Source: Paenibacillaceae bacterium
GTDB lineage: Bacteria; Bacillota; Clostridia; Lachnospirales; Lachnospiraceae
Length of the DNA: 64,000 bases
NCBI GenBank assembly: GCA_015057705.1
Contig: SVDU01000015.1
Coordinates: forward strand, 62,001-126,000
Reading direction: 5' to 3'
Shown: positions 3,163 to 64,000 of the stretch, piece after piece
Layout: every line of letters begins with the position of its first letter
How positions within the stretch are numbered: the stretch's first letter is position 1
Notes under the pieces: model-generated
The model's input: the letters and a program-made list of their open reading frames with translations, nothing else
Told to the model about the DNA's origin: nothing
Databases searched by the model: none
Translations under genes and position numbers: made by a program

Positions 3163-4155
3163 ATGAAAAACTACATTGTACTGGATCTGGAATGGAACCA
3201 GAGCGCTGGAGGGAAGGAGGAAGCAGTCGACCATTTTCCCTTTGAGATTATTGAAATCGGAGCAGTAAGGCTGAATGAGACCATGGAAGAAACGGGAGAA
3301 TACAGGAGACTGATTAAGCCCAGAGTCTATACTGAGCTTCATGAAAAAATCCTGGAAGTGACCCACATGGATCAACAGACGCTGATGGAAGAGGGAATCT
3401 GCTTTGAGGAGGCTGTGAAAGAGTTTTTTCTCTGGTGTGGAGACGATCCCGTATTTTGTACATGGGGATCCATGGATCTAACGGAGCTCCAGCGAAACAT
3501 CGCCTATTATGGACTGCCAGATCCCTTTAAAAAACCCCTTCTTTACTATGACATCCAAAAACTTTACAGCCTTCTGGAGGGGGATGGGAAAGACCGGGTG
3601 TCTCTTGATGTTGCTGTTTTTGAATCAGGAGTCATGGAAGAACGTCCGTTTCACAGAGCTCTTGATGATGCTCATTATACGGGACGGATTATGAGTAAAA
3701 TGGACTTTAAAAAGGTGGAGGCATACTGGTCTACGGATTATTATTGTCTGCCTGCCAATAAAGAGGAAGAGATCTATCTGGTCTTCCCCAGATATTCCAA
3801 ATACATTTCAAGGCCTTTTGAATCAAAGCAGGCGGCCATCGAGGATAAAACGGTAACTGATCTCATCTGCTGTAAATGCAACCGGATGCTGAAGAAGAAA
3901 ATACGGTGGTTTTCTGTAAACCAGAAAGTATATACCGCACTGGGATGTTGCCCTGTTCATGGTAATGTAAAGGGGAAAATCAGGCTGAGGCGAAATGATG
4001 AGGGAATGGTTTATGTGGTAAAGACCATGAAGCTGATTGGTGAGGATGAAATTGGCGGAATCTATGAAAAAAAGGACGAGGCAAAGAAAAAACGGGTGGA
4101 AAAGACCAAAGTCCGCAAGCTGAACAAAAAGAAGGGGGCAATCCCCCCTTCTTAA
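3163..4155 (+). CDS. DEDD-type 3'-5' exonuclease (DnaQ/RNase T/KapD-like)
   Basis: Residues 1-180 form an exonuclease fold: VLDLEWNQ (Exo I, D and E), the Exo II region around FCTWGSMDL, and HRALDDAHYT (Exo III, HxAxxD). About 150 extra C-terminal residues include CCKCNRMLKK plus a later ALGCCPVHG, which look like a four-Cys zinc site, and a very basic tail (KKKRVEKTKVRKLNKKKG) suited to nucleic-acid binding. Substrate (RNA or DNA) cannot be decided. It starts 13 bp after the DUF3006 gene, probably in the same operon. Its last codons lie inside the convergent terminator hairpin. Confidence 0.85.
   Translation: MKNYIVLDLEWNQSAGGKEEAVDHFPFEIIEIGAVRLNETMEETGEYRRLIKPRVYTELHEKILEVTHMDQQTLMEEGICFEEAVKEFFLWCGDDPVFCTWGSMDLTELQRNIAYYGLPDPFKKPLLYYDIQKLYSLLEGDGKDRVSLDVAVFESGVMEERPFHRALDDAHYTGRIMSKMDFKKVEAYWSTDYYCLPANKEEEIYLVFPRYSKYISRPFESKQAAIEDKTVTDLICCKCNRMLKKKIRWFSVNQKVYTALGCCPVHGNVKGKIRLRRNDEGMVYVVKTMKLIGEDEIGGIYEKKDEAKKKRVEKTKVRKLNKKKGAIPPS
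4129..4153. terminator. bidirectional terminator overlapping two convergent stop codons
   Basis: AAGAAGGGGG (4129-4138) and CCCCCTTCTT (4144-4153) make a very stable 10-bp stem with a short loop. It lies inside the 3' ends of both the exonuclease (stop 4155) and the convergent response regulator (stop 4152). Confidence 0.75.
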
Positions 4156-4862
4156 TATTCGCTTTCCCGCATCCGGTAACCAACACCTATTTCTGTAAAA
4201 ATATAATTTGGTTCTCCCGGATTTATTTCGATTTTTCTCCGGATATGTGCCATATTCACTCTTAGAATCTGGTTATTACTGTCTGCATAGGGTCCCCAGA
4301 TATGGTTGATCATGTAGTCATAGGTAAGTACCTTGCCGGAGTTCTCTGCCAGAAGGGATACCAGTTTATATTCAATCTGTGTTAAATGGATCACATGCCC
4401 ATTTAAAGTAACCAGGCGCTTGGCAAAGTCAATTACAAGCCCCTTGCATTGATACGGTGTCTGTATCACAGAACCGTCAACTGTGCTGACTGTGGATTTG
4501 CCGTGTCGCAGCGCTGTGCGGATTCTGGCCAGAAGTTCGCTGGTGCCAAAGGGCTTGGTAATATAATCGTCAGCGCCATAATCAAGGGCTGTAACCTTTT
4601 CCTGTTCCTGAGTTCTGGCAGAAATGACAATGATAGGAATGGCTGACCAGCTTCTTACATTCCTGATAATATCCAATCCGTCTATATCAGGCAGACCCAA
4701 ATCCAAAAGGATAACGTCAGGACAGTTGGAACTGATCATAGCCAGCCCGTCTTTTCCATTCACTGCACTGATGACCTTATAATCATGTCTTTGCAGGGTG
4801 CTTTCAATAAAACCCGAAATATTCTTTTCGTCTTCAATAATTGCTATTGTAAATTTATTCAC
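4152..4862 (-). CDS. OmpR/KdpE-type response regulator
   Basis: A 236-residue regulator with an N-terminal receiver (acidic pocket IIEDEKN; phospho-acceptor Asp in VILLDLGLPD; signalling Lys in YITKPFG) and a C-terminal winged helix (LTQIEYKLVSLLAE to VGYRMRE). Sequence style is closest to KdpE. The start is taken as the GTG at 4862, preceded by GGGAGAG; the reading frame is open further upstream but without a ribosome site. It overlaps the end of the kinase gene by 8 bp, so the pair is translationally coupled. No kdpFABC potassium pump is present in the window. Confidence 0.88.
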   Translation of the reverse strand: MNKFTIAIIEDEKNISGFIESTLQRHDYKVISAVNGKDGLAMISSNCPDVILLDLGLPDIDGLDIIRNVRSWSAIPIIVISARTQEQEKVTALDYGADDYITKPFGTSELLARIRTALRHGKSTVSTVDGSVIQTPYQCKGLVIDFAKRLVTLNGHVIHLTQIEYKLVSLLAENSGKVLTYDYMINHIWGPYADSNNQILRVNMAHIRRKIEINPGEPNYIFTEIGVGYRMRESEY

Positions 4863-5940
4863 AAGTATTCTCTCCCAATGGTAATGTAAAAGTAAAGATT
4901 GCCCCAAGTGATTCATTGCCCGCTGTTATGCTTCCGTTATGTGCGGTTATGATTGTCTTACAGATGGACAAACCAATTCCCATACCCTTATGAGAATCTC
5001 CACTGCTGTTTGGGGAAGGGGTATATCCGTCAAATATGGTAGAAAGCCTGTCTGGTGCGATTCCGACTCCATGATCACGGATGTCAAATCGGGCGTTACC
5101 ATCCTCAATGGAGATGGTTAAACTGATAGGATCTTTGGAATTTGAATGGTACACTGCATTTTCCAGAAGGTTGATAATCACCTGTTCAATCAGTGTGGCA
5201 TCCATGGGAACCATGACCAGTTCATCTGGTACGGTTACCTTTACCGCGGTACCAGGAAAACGTTTATGAAAACGCATGACTGCTTCGGACGCTACCTCCT
5301 CCAATGGTTCCAGGGATTTGGTTATCTGTGTTTTCGTCCCCCGGATTCTGGTGACTGTCAGCAAATTTTCTACCATGTTAAGAAGCCAGTTGGCATCTTC
5401 ACGGATTCCGTTTACCAGAGTTGCTTTTTCTTCTTCAGGCATGGAATCGTGATCATCAAGAAAAGAGTTGCTTGCACCGATAATTCCGGTTAAGGGTGTT
5501 CTGAGATCATGTGAAATGGCTCTCAGCAGATTTGCCCGCATTGTCTCTTTCTCTGCTTCCATTAAAAGCTTTTCCCGTTCACGGATAATTTTATTCTGAT
5601 ATTTTAAATGTGTCGTGGTGGCACTTGTAATACTGGATATGACCATTAAAGCAATAAAGGTAATGGGGTATCCATCCATGGTGAAATTTAAGTGCATAAA
5701 AGGGTATGTAAATACCAGATTTACGCAGATTACACTAATGAAAGATGCTATGACTCCCGGTATATATCCATTTGAAAAACGGGAGATCAGAACAACTGCC
5801 ATCATATATACGATACTTACATTCGCGGTGTGTCCGCCCACAAAGACCAGCAGATAAGAAACAATGGTTGCTCCGGTCAGAGCTAAGATGGTAACCAGAA
5901 AGTTCCACACCAGTTCTTTTCTTGACAAGGACTTTTTCAT
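4855..5940 (-). CDS. KdpD-like sensor histidine kinase lacking the N-terminal KdpD domain
   Basis: A 361-residue kinase with four membrane helices in about residues 10-105 (DUF4118, the KdpD membrane domain), a HisKA domain with RAISHDLRTPLTGI (His about residue 150), and a HATPase with NLLENAVYHS (N box), DHGVGIAPD (G1) and GMGIGLSICK (G2). Full KdpD has about 880 residues, with an N-terminal KdpD/USP region that is absent here. Start at 5940 chosen because GGGAGGGG sits just before that ATG. It is followed by its regulator with an 8-bp overlap. Confidence 0.87.
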   Translation of the reverse strand: MKKSLSRKELVWNFLVTILALTGATIVSYLLVFVGGHTANVSIVYMMAVVLISRFSNGYIPGVIASFISVICVNLVFTYPFMHLNFTMDGYPITFIALMVISSITSATTTHLKYQNKIIREREKLLMEAEKETMRANLLRAISHDLRTPLTGIIGASNSFLDDHDSMPEEEKATLVNGIREDANWLLNMVENLLTVTRIRGTKTQITKSLEPLEEVASEAVMRFHKRFPGTAVKVTVPDELVMVPMDATLIEQVIINLLENAVYHSNSKDPISLTISIEDGNARFDIRDHGVGIAPDRLSTIFDGYTPSPNSSGDSHKGMGIGLSICKTIITAHNGSITAGNESLGAIFTFTLPLGENTCE

Positions 5941-5952
5941 AACCCCTCCCAT

Positions 5953-7500
5953 TTACCGGAATTTAAATTTTTCTTTTCTCCAGCCTTTTTTTCTGGAGGT
6001 ATAGATACCGCGGCGCTGTTGAAGAAGTGAATCAAATTCATCTGCCGAGACACCTGATTCTTTCAGACGTTTTAGTCTTTGTTCCCTCCGTATCAGAGAG
6101 TTTTGTTCTTCCTGGTGCTTCCTGAAAATCATAAAAGATATAAGGCCACCGATAACAATGGCAGCTCCTACGCATCCAAGGATAAGCCAGGCTGACATAG
6201 GGATCTCAAAAGGCCTTAATGCTTTTTCCCTATAATCCTGTGCTGCCCCGTCTGCTTTCAGCTTTGCTGCGTCCCTTCCTGCTAAAGCGTCTACGGCCTC
6301 TTCAGACGTTTCAGAAGCTTTGGTAGAAGGAGCATCTTCAAGCTTTGATTTAACTGCGGATGCTACCAGGGAATCGTTGATTTCCAGAAAGGTAGAACCA
6401 ACTACTCTGTCCTGGTAACGATAATTAATTTTGGCTATTGCATTTTCCGGATCATCGTTTGATATGTCATAACTTAATTCTGGCTGGGCATCATAAAAGT
6501 CGGCAGTCTTTGGTAATATAATGCGGCTGTCAGGATCCAGTACCAGCGCTTCCGGTTTTGTGATGGAAAGACCGCTGAAATTTAAATCGTTGGTAATGGA
6601 ACTATAGGTTTTTTCGTATTCAGCCGCTTTTAAAGACGTAAAATTATTAAAACCAAATTCCAGAAGATTTTTGGTATCTGCCCAGTATTGGGGAGTAGAT
6701 CCCTTTAGTATAACGGTGATGAGCTTCATTCCGTTTTTATCGGCGCACGTAATCAATGTATTGCCGGCAAGCGTGGTATAACCAGTTTTTCCGCCCACAA
6801 TCTCAGGATAGTAATAAGGAGAACCTTTTCTCATCATTTTATGTCCCGGATAGATGGCCAGTCCCTCTTTGTTAATGGAATTAGGTGGAAGTTTATAATA
6901 GGTAGTGGAATCGATCTCTTCAAAGATGGGATTATTAAAGGCTGCTCTGGCAATGAGTGCCATGTCGTAGGGGGATGTATAATGTTCCGGGTTATTTAAA
7001 CCGCTGGGGTTGGCAAAATGAGTGTTTTTGCAGCCAAGTTCCTTTGCCCTAGCATTCATCATATCGGCAAAAGCCTCTCTGCTTCCTGCAACATGTTCTG
7101 CCAGCGCATTGGCAGATTCATTGGCAGATTTTAGTAAAAGAGCATAAAGGCAGTCTTTTACAGACAGCTGGTCCCCTTCGTTAATTCCGGCATTGCTGCT
7201 TCCGGATTCCACATTAAATACAGCATCATGGGAAAAGGTTACAGTGTCGTCCAGCTTGCAGTTCTCAATCACCAGCAATGCAGTCATTACCTTTGTAATA
7301 CTTGCAGGAAAATACTGGTTGTGTATATTCTGTCCCCAGAGAATTGTTCCAGTATCCCCATCCATCAGGATCGCTCCATCTGCCTGTACCGATACATTGT
7401 CAGGCCAGTCAACAGCTGCTTTCCCGGTTACTGTAAAGGAAGAGGCGAACAAAAACAGACACAGGAAGAAACTTAATACTTTTTTAGTCAATTGGGTCAT
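5953..7500 (-). CDS. dacF: D-alanyl-D-alanine carboxypeptidase (PBP5/DacF family)
   Basis: A 515-residue low-molecular-weight penicillin-binding protein that trims the terminal D-Ala from peptidoglycan stem peptides outside the membrane. All three active-site motifs are present: SITK (SxxK, in FPASITKVMTA), SAN (SxN, in LKSANESAN) and KTG (in VGGKTGYTTLAG). A signal peptide lies at the N-terminus (hydrophobic run to KAAV). A second membrane helix near the C-terminus (AWLILGCVGAAIVIGGLI) and a basic cytoplasmic tail replace the usual amphipathic anchor. The start at 7500 is preferred: GGAGAG precedes it at a suitable distance and the upstream ATG at 7518 has no ribosome site. The gene symbol is by family, not proven orthology. 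Confidence 0.87.
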   Translation of the reverse strand: MTQLTKKVLSFFLCLFLFASSFTVTGKAAVDWPDNVSVQADGAILMDGDTGTILWGQNIHNQYFPASITKVMTALLVIENCKLDDTVTFSHDAVFNVESGSSNAGINEGDQLSVKDCLYALLLKSANESANALAEHVAGSREAFADMMNARAKELGCKNTHFANPSGLNNPEHYTSPYDMALIARAAFNNPIFEEIDSTTYYKLPPNSINKEGLAIYPGHKMMRKGSPYYYPEIVGGKTGYTTLAGNTLITCADKNGMKLITVILKGSTPQYWADTKNLLEFGFNNFTSLKAAEYEKTYSSITNDLNFSGLSITKPEALVLDPDSRIILPKTADFYDAQPELSYDISNDDPENAIAKINYRYQDRVVGSTFLEINDSLVASAVKSKLEDAPSTKASETSEEAVDALAGRDAAKLKADGAAQDYREKALRPFEIPMSAWLILGCVGAAIVIGGLISFMIFRKHQEEQNSLIRREQRLKRLKESGVSADEFDSLLQQRRGIYTSRKKGWRKEKFKFR

Positions 7501-60330: not shown

Positions 60331-60479
60331 TTGATAACCTCCTTTTTTCAATATTATACAACGAAGGCAGTAAAAAAGCACATTACATTTTTATGAAGAG
60401 AAGGAAAATGAAGCAGTTTCTATCATGTTTCCAACTGATTTTTCATATGCTTTACCAATTCAGGTAAAAGGGTGTTGCT

Positions 60480-61220
60480 ATGAACATATATGTAGTAAAG
60501 CCGGGTGACAGTGTAGATTCCATTGCCGCGTCCCAGAACGTTCCGGTAGAAGCATTGACATATGACAATCAGATTTATCCTCCATACCGCCTGGCAGTCG
60601 GTCAGGCACTTTATATCAGGGGTGACAGTCCGCCCGAAGACAGGATTCCACTTTATGTGTTTGGCTATGCATATCCCTTCATTAATCCGGATAATCTGGA
60701 TGAAACTCTTCCATTTCTCACTGACCTTTACGTTTTTTCCTATGGATTTACGTTAGAGGGAGATTTAGTTCCGCCTCAGAGCCCGGATGACTGGATGATC
60801 GATCGTGCATTGGAAGCCGGAGTGCGCCCGGTTCTGACTTTAACGCCCTTTGGACCAGATGGCCGGTTTAATAATAATCTTGTAACAAACCTGGTACACA
60901 ACCCACAGATTCAGCAGCGTCTGATATGGAATCTTGGTAAGATCATGCAGGAGAAACGGTTTGGCGGTCTGGATATTGACTTTGAGTACATTATGGCAGA
61001 TGACCGTCAGGCTTATGCGGACTTTGTAAAACGGATCACGCAAATCATGAATCAGTTTGGCTATCAGGTGACGGTTGCACTTGCACCCAAGACTTCCGCT
61101 GATCAGAGCGGGCTTTTATATGAAGGGGTGGATTACAGGCTTCTTGGGGAAGCGGCAAACAGGGTTTTGCTTATGACTTATGAGTGGGGGTATACATATG
61201 AGCCGACAAGATATAGGTAA
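60480..61220 (+). pseudogene. LysM-GH18 (YaaH/SleL-like spore) gene, 5' part, interrupted by a mobile element
   Basis: 246 codons remain. There is an N-terminal LysM (VVKPGDSVDSIAASQNVPVE, residues 4-46), then a GH18 domain with the catalytic segment FGGLDIDFEYIM (about residue 162; Glu is the acid). Family members have about 420-430 residues, and the strand LLMTYEWGYTY here is normally followed by about 170 more; instead the frame ends 8 codons on, EPTRYR-stop. No ribosome-site defect. A serine recombinase gene begins its 3' end 27 bp later. The rest of the gene should lie beyond the far end of the element. Such proteins act on spore cortex. Confidence 0.85.
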
Positions 61221-61247
61221 TTATAAATCCTTTAAAAACCCAGTGTT

Positions 61248-62831
61248 TTAGCGGTTTTCCGGGATCCGTGGAAAAATGTTTAATGTGAAGTTCGCCGTAT
61301 TTCCGGCGCCTTTTTTATTTCTTTCAGTTTTTAGGTAGTCAATACGGTCTATTACATTTCTTAACATTGAGTTTCTTGTTATAACATCGTCGATTTCCCA
61401 GTATGCTTCAATTAACCGTTCAATAGCTGGAATAAAGTCCTTGCGAGCCTGCTCCATGGCAGTGATTCGATCCCGTTCTTTCTCAATGTGATCCAGCTCT
61501 TCCTCCAGTTCAGCCTTTTGAGAATCTAATGTTGCACGGCGCTCCTGGAAAGTTTCAAGATCATAAACACCTTGCTCCAGAAGGTCAAAGGTTTTATTTA
61601 ACTGTTTCAATGTCTGGTTGAGCTTTTCTTCTATATTAATAATGGAGTTTTCTAACACTGCAAGTGTTGTTTCCCCTTCATGTTCTGATTGCTCTGGCCA
61701 TTCTACGTTATACTCCGGGATCCATTCTTTTAGGCTTTCAATAACCTGTTCTTCTATTAAAGTGAGAGGAGAGGATATATTGCTACACTTACTGTTTGCA
61801 CAGCGTAAAACGGCGTAGCGGAGCCGGGTATTACTGGGCTGCCTGGTCATTAAGTTTCCGCACTTTGCACAGTATACCAATCCTGAAAGTGGGTTCTGCA
61901 GGGCAGTACTTATATTAATGGGGAGTGGCTTACCGGCTTTGATCTTTTGCGCCAGGTTAAAGGTATCTTCTGAAATTATGGGATCAAAGCGTCCCCGGAC
62001 TTTCTCACAATCCGCATCTTTTGGCCGTGATTCAATAATGCGTCCCCCTACCATTTGTTTGTGGACCTTGCGCCATTGCCATCTTTGATATCCACAATAG
62101 GTCGGGTTATTAAGTATATCAACAATGGAAGATGCGGACCAGGGCTTTTCACTTCGAGATGGAACGCTCAGCTCATTGAGCCGATCTCGGATCTGGTAGG
62201 ATCCAAACTGGGCATAGCTGCCGTCTTCCCGGGGTTCGCCTGCTGTGTAGAGCTCAAATATATATTTAATAATTTTAGCTTCCTCCGGCACGATCTGAAG
62301 GGTGTAGCCTTTATCACCTTTATGCTTAACCTTTTCATAACCGTAGGGCGCTGTCCCGGCAATATACCAGCCATCACGAAAGGCTGCGATTCGACCGCGC
62401 TGGATCCGTCGATTAATAGTCTTATATTCCCGACGGCTCATGAAGAGATTGAATTCAAAATACTCCTCGTCGAATTCATCAGACGGGTCATATGTTTTCA
62501 TAGGGGTTATGATTCGGGTATTACTAAACTTAAAGGCTTCAGCTACCGTTCCCTGATCCTTTGTGTCCCCTCTGGCCAGACGTTCCACTTCCATGACAAG
62601 GACACCTTCCCACATGCCCTGCATTACTTCTACGAGGAGCTGCTGCATCTTGGGGCGGGCGGATATGGTTTCTCCGGAGACCAGTTCTTTGTAAACGGCA
62701 CCGATTTCAAGCCCCATTTTTACGGATAGCTCTGTCAGTAGCATTTCATGACGGGCGAGGGTTTCACCTTCGCCGCGTGATTCTGCTTCTTTATCAGCTC
62801 GGCTTTTTCTGAGATACATGAGATATGACAT
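61248..62831 (-). CDS. large serine recombinase
   Basis: A 527-residue site-specific recombinase. The catalytic Ser is in MYLRKSRAD (about residue 10), with ERLARG in the catalytic domain. A recombinase domain (about 160-270) is followed by a zinc ribbon (CAKCGN then CANSKC, about 322-350) and a long coiled coil (about 395-460), the parts that choose direction and partner. AGGAGG precedes the ATG. It is the outermost gene, facing the broken GH18 gene, as in SP-beta and skin. Confidence 0.93.
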   Translation of the reverse strand: MSYLMYLRKSRADKEAESRGEGETLARHEMLLTELSVKMGLEIGAVYKELVSGETISARPKMQQLLVEVMQGMWEGVLVMEVERLARGDTKDQGTVAEAFKFSNTRIITPMKTYDPSDEFDEEYFEFNLFMSRREYKTINRRIQRGRIAAFRDGWYIAGTAPYGYEKVKHKGDKGYTLQIVPEEAKIIKYIFELYTAGEPREDGSYAQFGSYQIRDRLNELSVPSRSEKPWSASSIVDILNNPTYCGYQRWQWRKVHKQMVGGRIIESRPKDADCEKVRGRFDPIISEDTFNLAQKIKAGKPLPINISTALQNPLSGLVYCAKCGNLMTRQPSNTRLRYAVLRCANSKCSNISSPLTLIEEQVIESLKEWIPEYNVEWPEQSEHEGETTLAVLENSIINIEEKLNQTLKQLNKTFDLLEQGVYDLETFQERRATLDSQKAELEEELDHIEKERDRITAMEQARKDFIPAIERLIEAYWEIDDVITRNSMLRNVIDRIDYLKTERNKKGAGNTANFTLNIFPRIPENR

Positions 62832-62985
62832 GGGTGCCTCCTTTCTTAGATCTATTTTATGGAAATAGTATATATTTAATTCTGTTTTGAGAGTTAATAA
62901 TATGTTTTCTTATAAGGGTGCTCCGAAAATAATGTAATTATATTTATCTCTTTCCATAAGCCCAATAGGAAAGCTTTTTGAAAAG

Positions 62986-63014
62986 CCGCTCGGTGTTTCA
63001 AAGGCACCGGGCGG
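62986..63014 (-). terminator. terminator after the zinc-ribbon membrane protein gene
   Basis: CCGCTCGGTG (62986-62995) pairs with CACCGGGCGG (63005-63014), one mismatch; CTTTT follows on the minus strand. Confidence 0.7.
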
Positions 63015-63041
63015 TCTCATATAATTAATAAAGGTCCAATT

Positions 63042-63482
63042 CTATTTAAGTCCAACTTGCGCTTTTGCAGTAGCGGAATCATTTGTAAAAGTTACATTGG
63101 CATTTGAGCCAGCTGTTCCGTTTCCGTACCAGGTGACTATAATGATTTTGTAACCATTAGATTCAACCTGAGAAGAGATAGTGCCAGCGCTGCCAACTAT
63201 TTTTTGTACTTCTTCATAGGTCATTCCTGTATCTATCTGGTTATATTCATCCAGGGTTATGTACTCGCTTTTGTCAGCTACTCCGGAAACTTCTTTTTGT
63301 ATTCCGCCGTTCAATACAGTGCCGATAACTAAAATGCCAGCAAAGACAATTATAAATGAAAAAATTGCAGCTAAACATCCGTGTGATTTCAAATTTCTTT
63401 TGCATACAGGGCATACTTTTGCCTTTGAGTTGATTTCAGATTGACAGTATTTGCATTTCTTTGTTTTTGTTTCTTTTCCCAT
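63042..63482 (-). CDS. zinc-ribbon membrane protein with DUF3862/SmpA-like domain
   Basis: A 146-residue protein. The N-terminal zinc ribbon is CKYCQSEI then CPVCKRNL (about 10-30), followed by one membrane helix (about 36-60) and an extracytoplasmic domain with YNQIDTGMTYEEVQKIVG, the start of a BLIP/SmpA-type fold (DUF3862). Role unknown; cargo of the second element. Ribosome site AAAAGAT is weak. Confidence 0.75.
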   Translation of the reverse strand: MGKETKTKKCKYCQSEINSKAKVCPVCKRNLKSHGCLAAIFSFIIVFAGILVIGTVLNGGIQKEVSGVADKSEYITLDEYNQIDTGMTYEEVQKIVGSAGTISSQVESNGYKIIIVTWYGNGTAGSNANVTFTNDSATAKAQVGLK

Positions 63483-63501
63483 ATCTTTTCCCCTTTTAAT
63501 T

Positions 63502-63984
63502 TTATTTCATATCTGCCAGTCCGAATCTGTCTTTTACTGGTTCAGGAGCAACGTCGTGGTCATAAACCACAGTTTCCTGATAAGCATTGGGGTCACTCCA
63601 ATAACGATTATTGTAGTAAACCACGCTTCCGTTTGCCAGATCACGTGCAGTAGCCTCAGCACTTCCGCTATATTCTATCCAACCTTCATGAGGTCCACCA
63701 ATAGGCATAAGGGTGTTGTAATCACAGGGATTCATGCAAGCTCCGCTATTTGCAAATCCGAACCAGCCGTTTTGAAATTGGTACCAGCCTGTTTTCATAT
63801 AACCCGTCTTGTCAAAATAATACCAGTTATGATCAATTTCTTTTAATCCATTCATGGGATATGTACCGTTATCATTTTGATACCACCAACCGGTTGCATT
63901 CTGCTTCCATTCTCCTGCGAACGCAGTAATTCCCAAAGTCATAGATATTACAGTTGTTGCAAAAAACAATTTTAACTTCTTCAT
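63502..63984 (-). CDS. secreted wall-binding-repeat protein
   Basis: A 160-residue exported protein. Signal peptide to about residue 25 (cut near AFAGE). Wall-binding repeats are WKQNATGWWYQNDNGTYP and HNWYYFDKTGYMKTGWYQF. The C-terminal 80 residues are unassigned. ATG at 63984 lies 7 nt after GGAGG. It resembles the chromosomal wall-binding protein at 705-1652 but is cargo of the second element. Confidence 0.8.
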   Translation of the reverse strand: MKKLKLFFATTVISMTLGITAFAGEWKQNATGWWYQNDNGTYPMNGLKEIDHNWYYFDKTGYMKTGWYQFQNGWFGFANSGACMNPCDYNTLMPIGGPHEGWIEYSGSAEATARDLANGSVVYYNNRYWSDPNAYQETVVYDHDVAPEPVKDRFGLADMK

Positions 63985-64000
63985 GCTCATTCCTCCGCCT

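Follow-up and report, generated by a model that had tools for sequence, protein, structure and literature searches.

The locus near the right end of the window (the whole 64,000-nucleotide stretch of DNA that was analysed, which lies on contig C15 of its genome) raises the question of whether a spore gene is kept in two pieces by a mobile element and is put together again during sporulation. The preliminary description of this stretch had proposed such a split, of the kind caused by skin and SP-beta, for a gene that stops within its GH18 domain right after the strand LLMTYEWGYTY, 27 bp from the 3' end of a gene for a large serine recombinase (LSR). Both structural observations were confirmed. 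The ORF at 60480..61220 on the plus strand encodes the N-terminal half of a SleL/YaaH-like LysM-GH18 protein. A profile search detected a LysM domain in it (E 8.9e-10), and only positions 82-182 of the 317 positions of the GH18 profile are covered. The ORF ends with LLMTYEWGYTY-EPTRYR-stop; host DNA extends to about 61195, and the final codons, six of which lie between LLMTYEWGYTY and the stop, are derived from the P' arm of the element. The LSR gene (61248..62831, minus strand), separated from this ORF by 27 bp, encodes a protein of 527 aa with Resolvase, Recombinase and Zn-ribbon domains, the presumed integrase and excisionase of the element, which thus encodes a site-specific recombinase of its own.

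In order to locate the remainder of the gene, the complete genome assembly (4.53 Mb, 36 contigs) was searched for GH18. The missing profile positions (about 208-314) were found on the minus strand of contig C33, next to the other att half, clean and in frame; the preliminary description had named this remainder as the decisive thing to look for, and had noted that the frame left in the window shows no decay, which holds for both halves. The remainder on C33 starts with ...CATATACATACGGCCCACCCATGGCA, the window side of the break reads GAGTGGGGGTATACATATGAGCCGACAAG, and the two sides have TATACATA in common in direct orientation. When the flanks are joined at the core TATAC, recombination of the att sites rebuilds the reading frame exactly, as a single clean ORF of 381 aa, with the insertion point at codons 238-239. 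The 1394 bp around the joint align at 93.6% identity with the intact gene region of Lacrimispora xylanisolvens DSM 3808, the alignment running collinearly through the joint, and relatives that do not carry the element show precisely the corresponding empty site (e.g. GAGTGGGGGTATACATACGGCCC), a comparison that the preliminary description had proposed. The two halves of the gene lie on different contigs in this genome, as an assembly artefact or a chance joining of unrelated fragments would also produce. This explanation can be set aside with near certainty, given the collinearity of the joined flanks with the intact relative and given that both gene halves and the element are found on one contig in five other genomes (G005, G018, G019, G020 and G013). 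In a comparison with the PDB, the joined protein is closest to the cortex-lytic enzyme 4s3j and to YaaH (4s3k). The joined gene is, judging from this homology, a gene for a SleL/YaaH-like spore enzyme, and the element is located inside the coding sequence of what is by the same token a sporulation gene.

The attL site was placed at 61169..61220 (plus strand), with a B half, the core TATAC at 61191-61195 and the P' arm at 61196-61220. The core is shared with attR (C33:26532-26536) and with the intact relatives, and the crossover is presumed to take place at the AC at 61194-61195. Around this central AC, the P arm of the right end pairs with the P' arm of the left end at 24 of 25 positions in the window's own genome. 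The seven further elements for which both ends were read show 18-20 paired positions of 25, so that all eight elements fall between 18 and 24. Such a palindrome of P and P' around a central dinucleotide AC is the layout expected of a serine integrase attP. An alternative crossover at the central GC of the palindrome CTTGTCGGCCGACAAG was ruled out: a segment would then remain duplicated and the rejoined gene would be out of frame, whereas recombination at TATAC yields the empty site of the relatives together with a near-palindrome of 52 bp.

The element itself is a prophage with a contractile tail. Its left end occupies 61196..64000 of the window, from where it runs on along C15 to position 142625 and then from position 53401 of C33 down to attR, which gives about 46 kb (19.4 kb on C15 and 26.9 kb on C33) apart from the join between the contig ends. 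Matches in PHROGs were obtained for 9 of the 10 element ORFs scanned: integrase, RecE-like exonuclease, RecT-like annealing protein, large terminase, portal, tail sheath, tape measure, baseplate and amidase/endolysin. At the same place, G013 has a contiguous insert of 46.2 kb and G003 one of about 42 kb, as estimated from its ends. Other genomes have much smaller elements. That of G018 (6.9 kb) carries, by eye, a peptide transporter, a peptidase, an aminopeptidase and an XRE-cupin regulator, and those of G005, G019 and G020 (5.4-5.6 kb) carry a subtilase and another LysM-GH18 gene. The best NCBIfam matches of the subtilase are CspBA and CspC, below their cut-offs; on L048 the CspBA/CspC-like subtilase and the extra LysM-GH18 gene (3662-5332 and 5498-6793) constitute spore-related cargo in an element that is expected to leave. 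In G011 the element is spread over two contigs, with the LSR gene about 2.2 kb inside it. The constant parts of all eight elements are the LSR, the att sites and an ORF of 55 aa, with differing cargo in between.

The named relatives of the window's genome belong to Lacrimispora. Among 25 species-level Lacrimispora genomes, including the one analysed here (G000), the GH18 gene is whole in 16 and broken at one shared codon in 9; the element is seen in eight of the latter, and in G007 each half is found at the end of a separate contig. The split and intact states need 7 changes on the gene tree and are not more clustered than shuffled labels. The break was also found at the same codon in 5 genomes outside Lacrimispora, a recurrence beyond what chance would give. 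These come from a scan of named genomes that returned at least 588 relatives, the best 80 of which were kept: 70 have the gene whole, 8 have it split (3 of them Lacrimispora), one has a frame slip and one a contig end. For these 5 non-Lacrimispora splits, the C half was found elsewhere in the same genome, and an LSR flanks one half or the other (judged by eye in three of the 5). In a sample of the family, a match to the GH18 gene was obtained in 95 of 397 genomes. The 6 of these 95 (own genome included) with an open frame shorter than 330 aa were inspected, and the other 89 were counted as whole by frame length; G164 and G207 appear to be split, G164 beside an LSR, and their C halves are absent from the stretches read. 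Several further candidates for a split turned out to be something else: L099/G425 represents contig ends of an unbroken site, L068 is contiguous with a frame slip, G298 has a frame slip and G075 a contig end. In G274 (L203, C4:366500-371000), a genome of the family sample outside Lacrimispora, a dead element was observed, with the LSR truncated to 314 aa in an insert of 1.35 kb between the GH18 halves.

The presence of the recombinase follows the state of the gene. Orthologs of the window LSR with 77-97% identity occur in seven other split-gene Lacrimispora genomes and in none of the 16 with a whole gene, so that the LSR (77-100% identity) is present in 8 of 9 broken vs 0 of 16 intact cases (Fisher p 8e-6, kinship ignored). 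An ortholog search did not find the GH18 LSR in the G007 assembly. A more distant LSR (40-42%) is encoded elsewhere in four intact genomes (G004, G006, G008 and G014). In the LSR tree, G000/G013/G003 and G005/G019/G020 form groups similar to those of the gene tree, and thus both a long residence with losses and an exchange among near relatives are possible. In the PDB, the sole matches of the window LSR are to the SP-beta recombinase YokA (E 5.6e-43), which we take to be identical to SprA. Related LSRs occur in phages and viral contigs; four viral contigs with an LSR at 79-97% identity carry the 55-aa ORF too, and three of these four end in the GH18 N half. In G011 (C89, L154) an LSR 38% identical to that of the window was observed at a ComM/YifB-like gene (recognised by eye), a type of gene that the consulted part of PMC10083194 reports as a common LSR target.

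The 55-aa ORF is located outside the window, at C15:128369-128533 on the plus strand, and accompanies the LSR in 8 of 8 LSR-bearing elements of differing cargo; in G018 and G011 its length is about 56 aa. Its distance to the LSR start is some 200-280 bp in five elements and 2.4-4.1 kb in the three large ones. A block AAAGGTGTACAAAC...CATARRMT is kept upstream of the ORF, with one base different in G011 and one in G018; its CATARRMT part lies 20-27 nt ahead of the start codon, as counted by eye. No match of the 55-aa protein was found in Pfam, PHROGs, NCBIfam or the PDB, the best PDB hit of the family (E 0.15) not being credible, and a search of the PDB library for SprB (YotN, part of chain 9dxd) did not match it either. 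ORFs near the distant LSRs resemble it weakly. Because it stays with the LSR amid varying cargo, as sprA and sprB do in SP-beta-like elements, the 55-aa protein is likely to be the recombination directionality factor (RDF).

Is the gene still of use to its host while it is split? Among the 9 broken-gene genomes, pairwise dN/dS was 0.02-0.18 for the N half and 0.01-0.09 for the C half (where computable, several values being saturated). G005 and G019, which have one small element in common, differ by 4 nonsynonymous vs 13 synonymous changes in the N half (p 4e-6) and by 2 nonsynonymous vs 23 synonymous changes in the C half (p 2e-15), and the LSR is constrained in the same pair (p 3e-19). For the 55-aa ORF, purifying selection was not detected in G005-G019 (p 0.5) or G005-G020 (p 0.7), and constraint was observed in G000-G013, G000-G003 and G018-G011. 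These substitution patterns indicate that both halves are under purifying selection while the gene is split. The N half alone, with its LysM domain and a presumed catalytic barrel strand, could in principle work as a shortened protein, the split being a stable new form, and the clean frame with a short tail and a stop supplied by the P' arm would suit such a protein. We regard this as very improbable, given that constraint on the C half, for which no ribosome site of its own is evident, is no weaker than on the N half, and that the break interrupts the GH18 barrel, as seen in the alignment to 4s3j.

A more serious competitor is plain lysogeny, in which this LSR family would use a conserved but dispensable spore gene as attB and the gene would be restored only on phage induction. 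The element of the window's genome is indeed a phage that has genes for head, tail, lysis and recombination, related LSRs are those of phages and viral contigs, and the element must be dispensable because 16 of the 25 congeners live without it. Against this stand the strong constraint on both halves in split genomes and the retention of LSR, att sites and 55-aa ORF by elements of 5-7 kb that have no phage structural genes, as well as the fact that sigK and cotJC are split likewise within Lacrimispora. Taken together, we consider plain lysogeny unlikely. The element is in our judgement quite probably a spore gene-intervening prophage in a SleL/YaaH-like gene, whose excision in the mother cell rejoins the gene; the mother-cell timing and the RDF role are what we infer. 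The skin- or SP-beta-like split of a spore-type gene proposed in the preliminary description is thus supported by the remainder, the empty sites and the constraint on the halves, and the outcomes that would have spoken against it (a remainder absent, out of frame or decayed) were looked for and not encountered.

Traces of excision can be seen in two of the assemblies. In G007, contig C126 ends with ...GGGTATACATA, at the last base that attB and attL share, and contig C63 starts with TATACATACGG, at the first base that attB shares with attR. In G003, contig C127 starts with ATATACATACGG, again at the first base shared by attB and attR, and contig C68 holds both attL and attR. The sigK gene of G007 shows a similar picture: the N contig ends with ...AATGA, the C contig starts with AATGAGATCC, and a separate contig of 7,842 bp with the skin LSR starts with AATGATATAC and ends with ...AAATGA. 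At cotJC of G007, the sequence of contig C127 continues across the joined site, where it has one additional base, and C89 begins at the joined site; the cotJC site-A LSR was also not found in this assembly. The contig break points of G003 and G007 fit a mixture of excised and integrated molecules and suggest that excision happens. It is important to mention that those of G007 are indirect, because the GH18 LSR is absent from its assembly.

With regard to the timing, Spo0A and SpoIIID are present in the host genome, and a promoter-like pair, TCATGTT-N14-CATATGCT, is located upstream of the GH18 gene (60423..60451, plus strand). The pair, tentatively described as sigma-E-like, is kept with small changes in 24 aligned Lacrimispora sequences. 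The sigma-E pattern used for scanning was that of B. subtilis, and single matches were given zero weight: the window contains 21 matches vs 17.0 expected, so that the pair by itself is not above chance, and the next 18.6 kb contain 6 vs 6.9 expected, with none upstream of the LSR or the 55-aa ORF. In C. difficile, according to the part of PMC3789822 that was available, sigma-E promoters have ATA at -35 and a -10 element common to sigma-E and sigma-K.

The GH18 gene is not the only spore gene of this genome to be interrupted. Its sigK is split by a skin-like element of 7.9 kb (G000:C17:4712-13190, L216), the LSR of which is 23% identical to the window LSR. A small ORF was observed beside that LSR, and by eye the element contains hydrogenase-like genes. 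Both sigK pieces are found in at least 22 of the 25 Lacrimispora genomes, in at least 19 of these on one contig. As to cotJC, a second copy is apparently split after about codon 33 in 15 of the 25 genomes (from fragment coordinates), and the inserts at this site in G024, G017, G018 and G006 (loci L176, L186, L179 and L180) hold a different LSR. A split after about codon 66 was seen in G004, G005 (L185), G006 and G014, beside a relative of the window LSR with about 42% identity; cotJC consists of three pieces in G004, G006 and G014. The region G018:C9:2055000-2068500 (L179) is a tandem cotJC repeat, in which the LSR is present three times and cotJB, together with the start of cotJC, twice. Five viral contigs (L160, L161, L163, L169 and L171) carry LSRs 43-46% identical to that of the window, with a cotJC-like C-terminal part recognised by eye within about 230 bases after the LSR, and cotJC may therefore be a phage target outside Lacrimispora too.

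Elements of this kind are already known. SP-beta interrupts spsM in Bacillus subtilis and B. amyloliquefaciens and uses SprA and SprB; elements of different size retain sprA and sprB, and the mother-cell promoter of sprB has a good -10 and a poor -35, as far as the accessible part of PMC4191935 goes. The arrangement described here is similar in having a prophage or reduced element in a spore-surface gene, an LSR at the end and a small (here candidate) RDF, but it differs in its LysM-GH18 target, its clostridial host and its 55-aa candidate, which has no SprB match. It is thus not an SP-beta-like element in the strict sense of a SprA-type LSR with a SprB-type RDF in spsM, the LSR being distant and the target another gene. 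With skin in sigK of B. subtilis and Clostridioides difficile (CD1231/CD1234), it shares the in-frame reconstitution of a sporulation gene by an LSR and a small RDF, again a candidate here; in C. difficile, sigma-E and SpoIIID direct the synthesis of the skin RDF in the mother cell (PMC5025042, in the portion seen). It is nevertheless distinct from skin, since the window's genome carries a separate skin-like element with the dissimilar LSR mentioned above. Further intervening elements in spore genes, likewise similar in kind but with other target genes, are yin in yabG (Clostridium botulinum), gin in gerE (Bacillus cereus) and vfbin in spoVFB; for yin, integrated and excised subpopulations in pure culture are described (PMC10747680, PMC5595907, sections available to us). 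In those sections yin is described for a single isolate, whereas the site studied here is broken in 9 of 25 species-level genomes. In the open-licence literature, as far as its accessible text extends, we found no earlier report of the GH18 target, the LSR/RDF pair or the genus-wide use, and the supplementary target lists of PMC10083194 may include the site.

The following sequence of events is proposed. A phage of about 46 kb would have integrated by means of its own LSR into the GH18 coding sequence at TATAC. In the mother cell, during sporulation, the 55-aa RDF would be made and would switch the LSR to excision, the element would leave as a circle, and the rejoined GH18 gene would be expressed from its own promoter. 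The element would be retained in the forespore, so that the split gene is inherited by the descendants. In phage-carrying strains the same excision reaction would also serve lytic induction, and in strains with elements of 5-7 kb only the developmental use would remain.

That relatives keep the split arrangement in good order suggests a programmed DNA cut during spore formation. Beyond this locus, Lacrimispora and its relatives may run a sporulation excision programme at several loci, a proposal that we hold in even balance: at least three spore genes (sigK, the SleL-like GH18 gene, and cotJC at two sites) would be stored in pieces by recombinase elements with small companion ORFs, and the LSR-RDF-att module of the GH18 gene would be an exchangeable cassette whose cargo, ranging from whole phages to spore-related genes, would be discarded by the mother cell upon excision. 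The LSR, the att sites and the candidate RDF could also provide a new set of serine integrase tools. Intervening elements in the literature, in the parts consulted, are mostly single cases from model or pathogen strains. In the present case a single codon of a single gene, together with one LSR/55-aa pair, can be traced over 25 species-level genomes through intact, phage-split and small-element-split alleles. As alleles with and without the element occur in one genus, it would be directly testable by strain comparison whether such elements are parasites or switches that serve the host.
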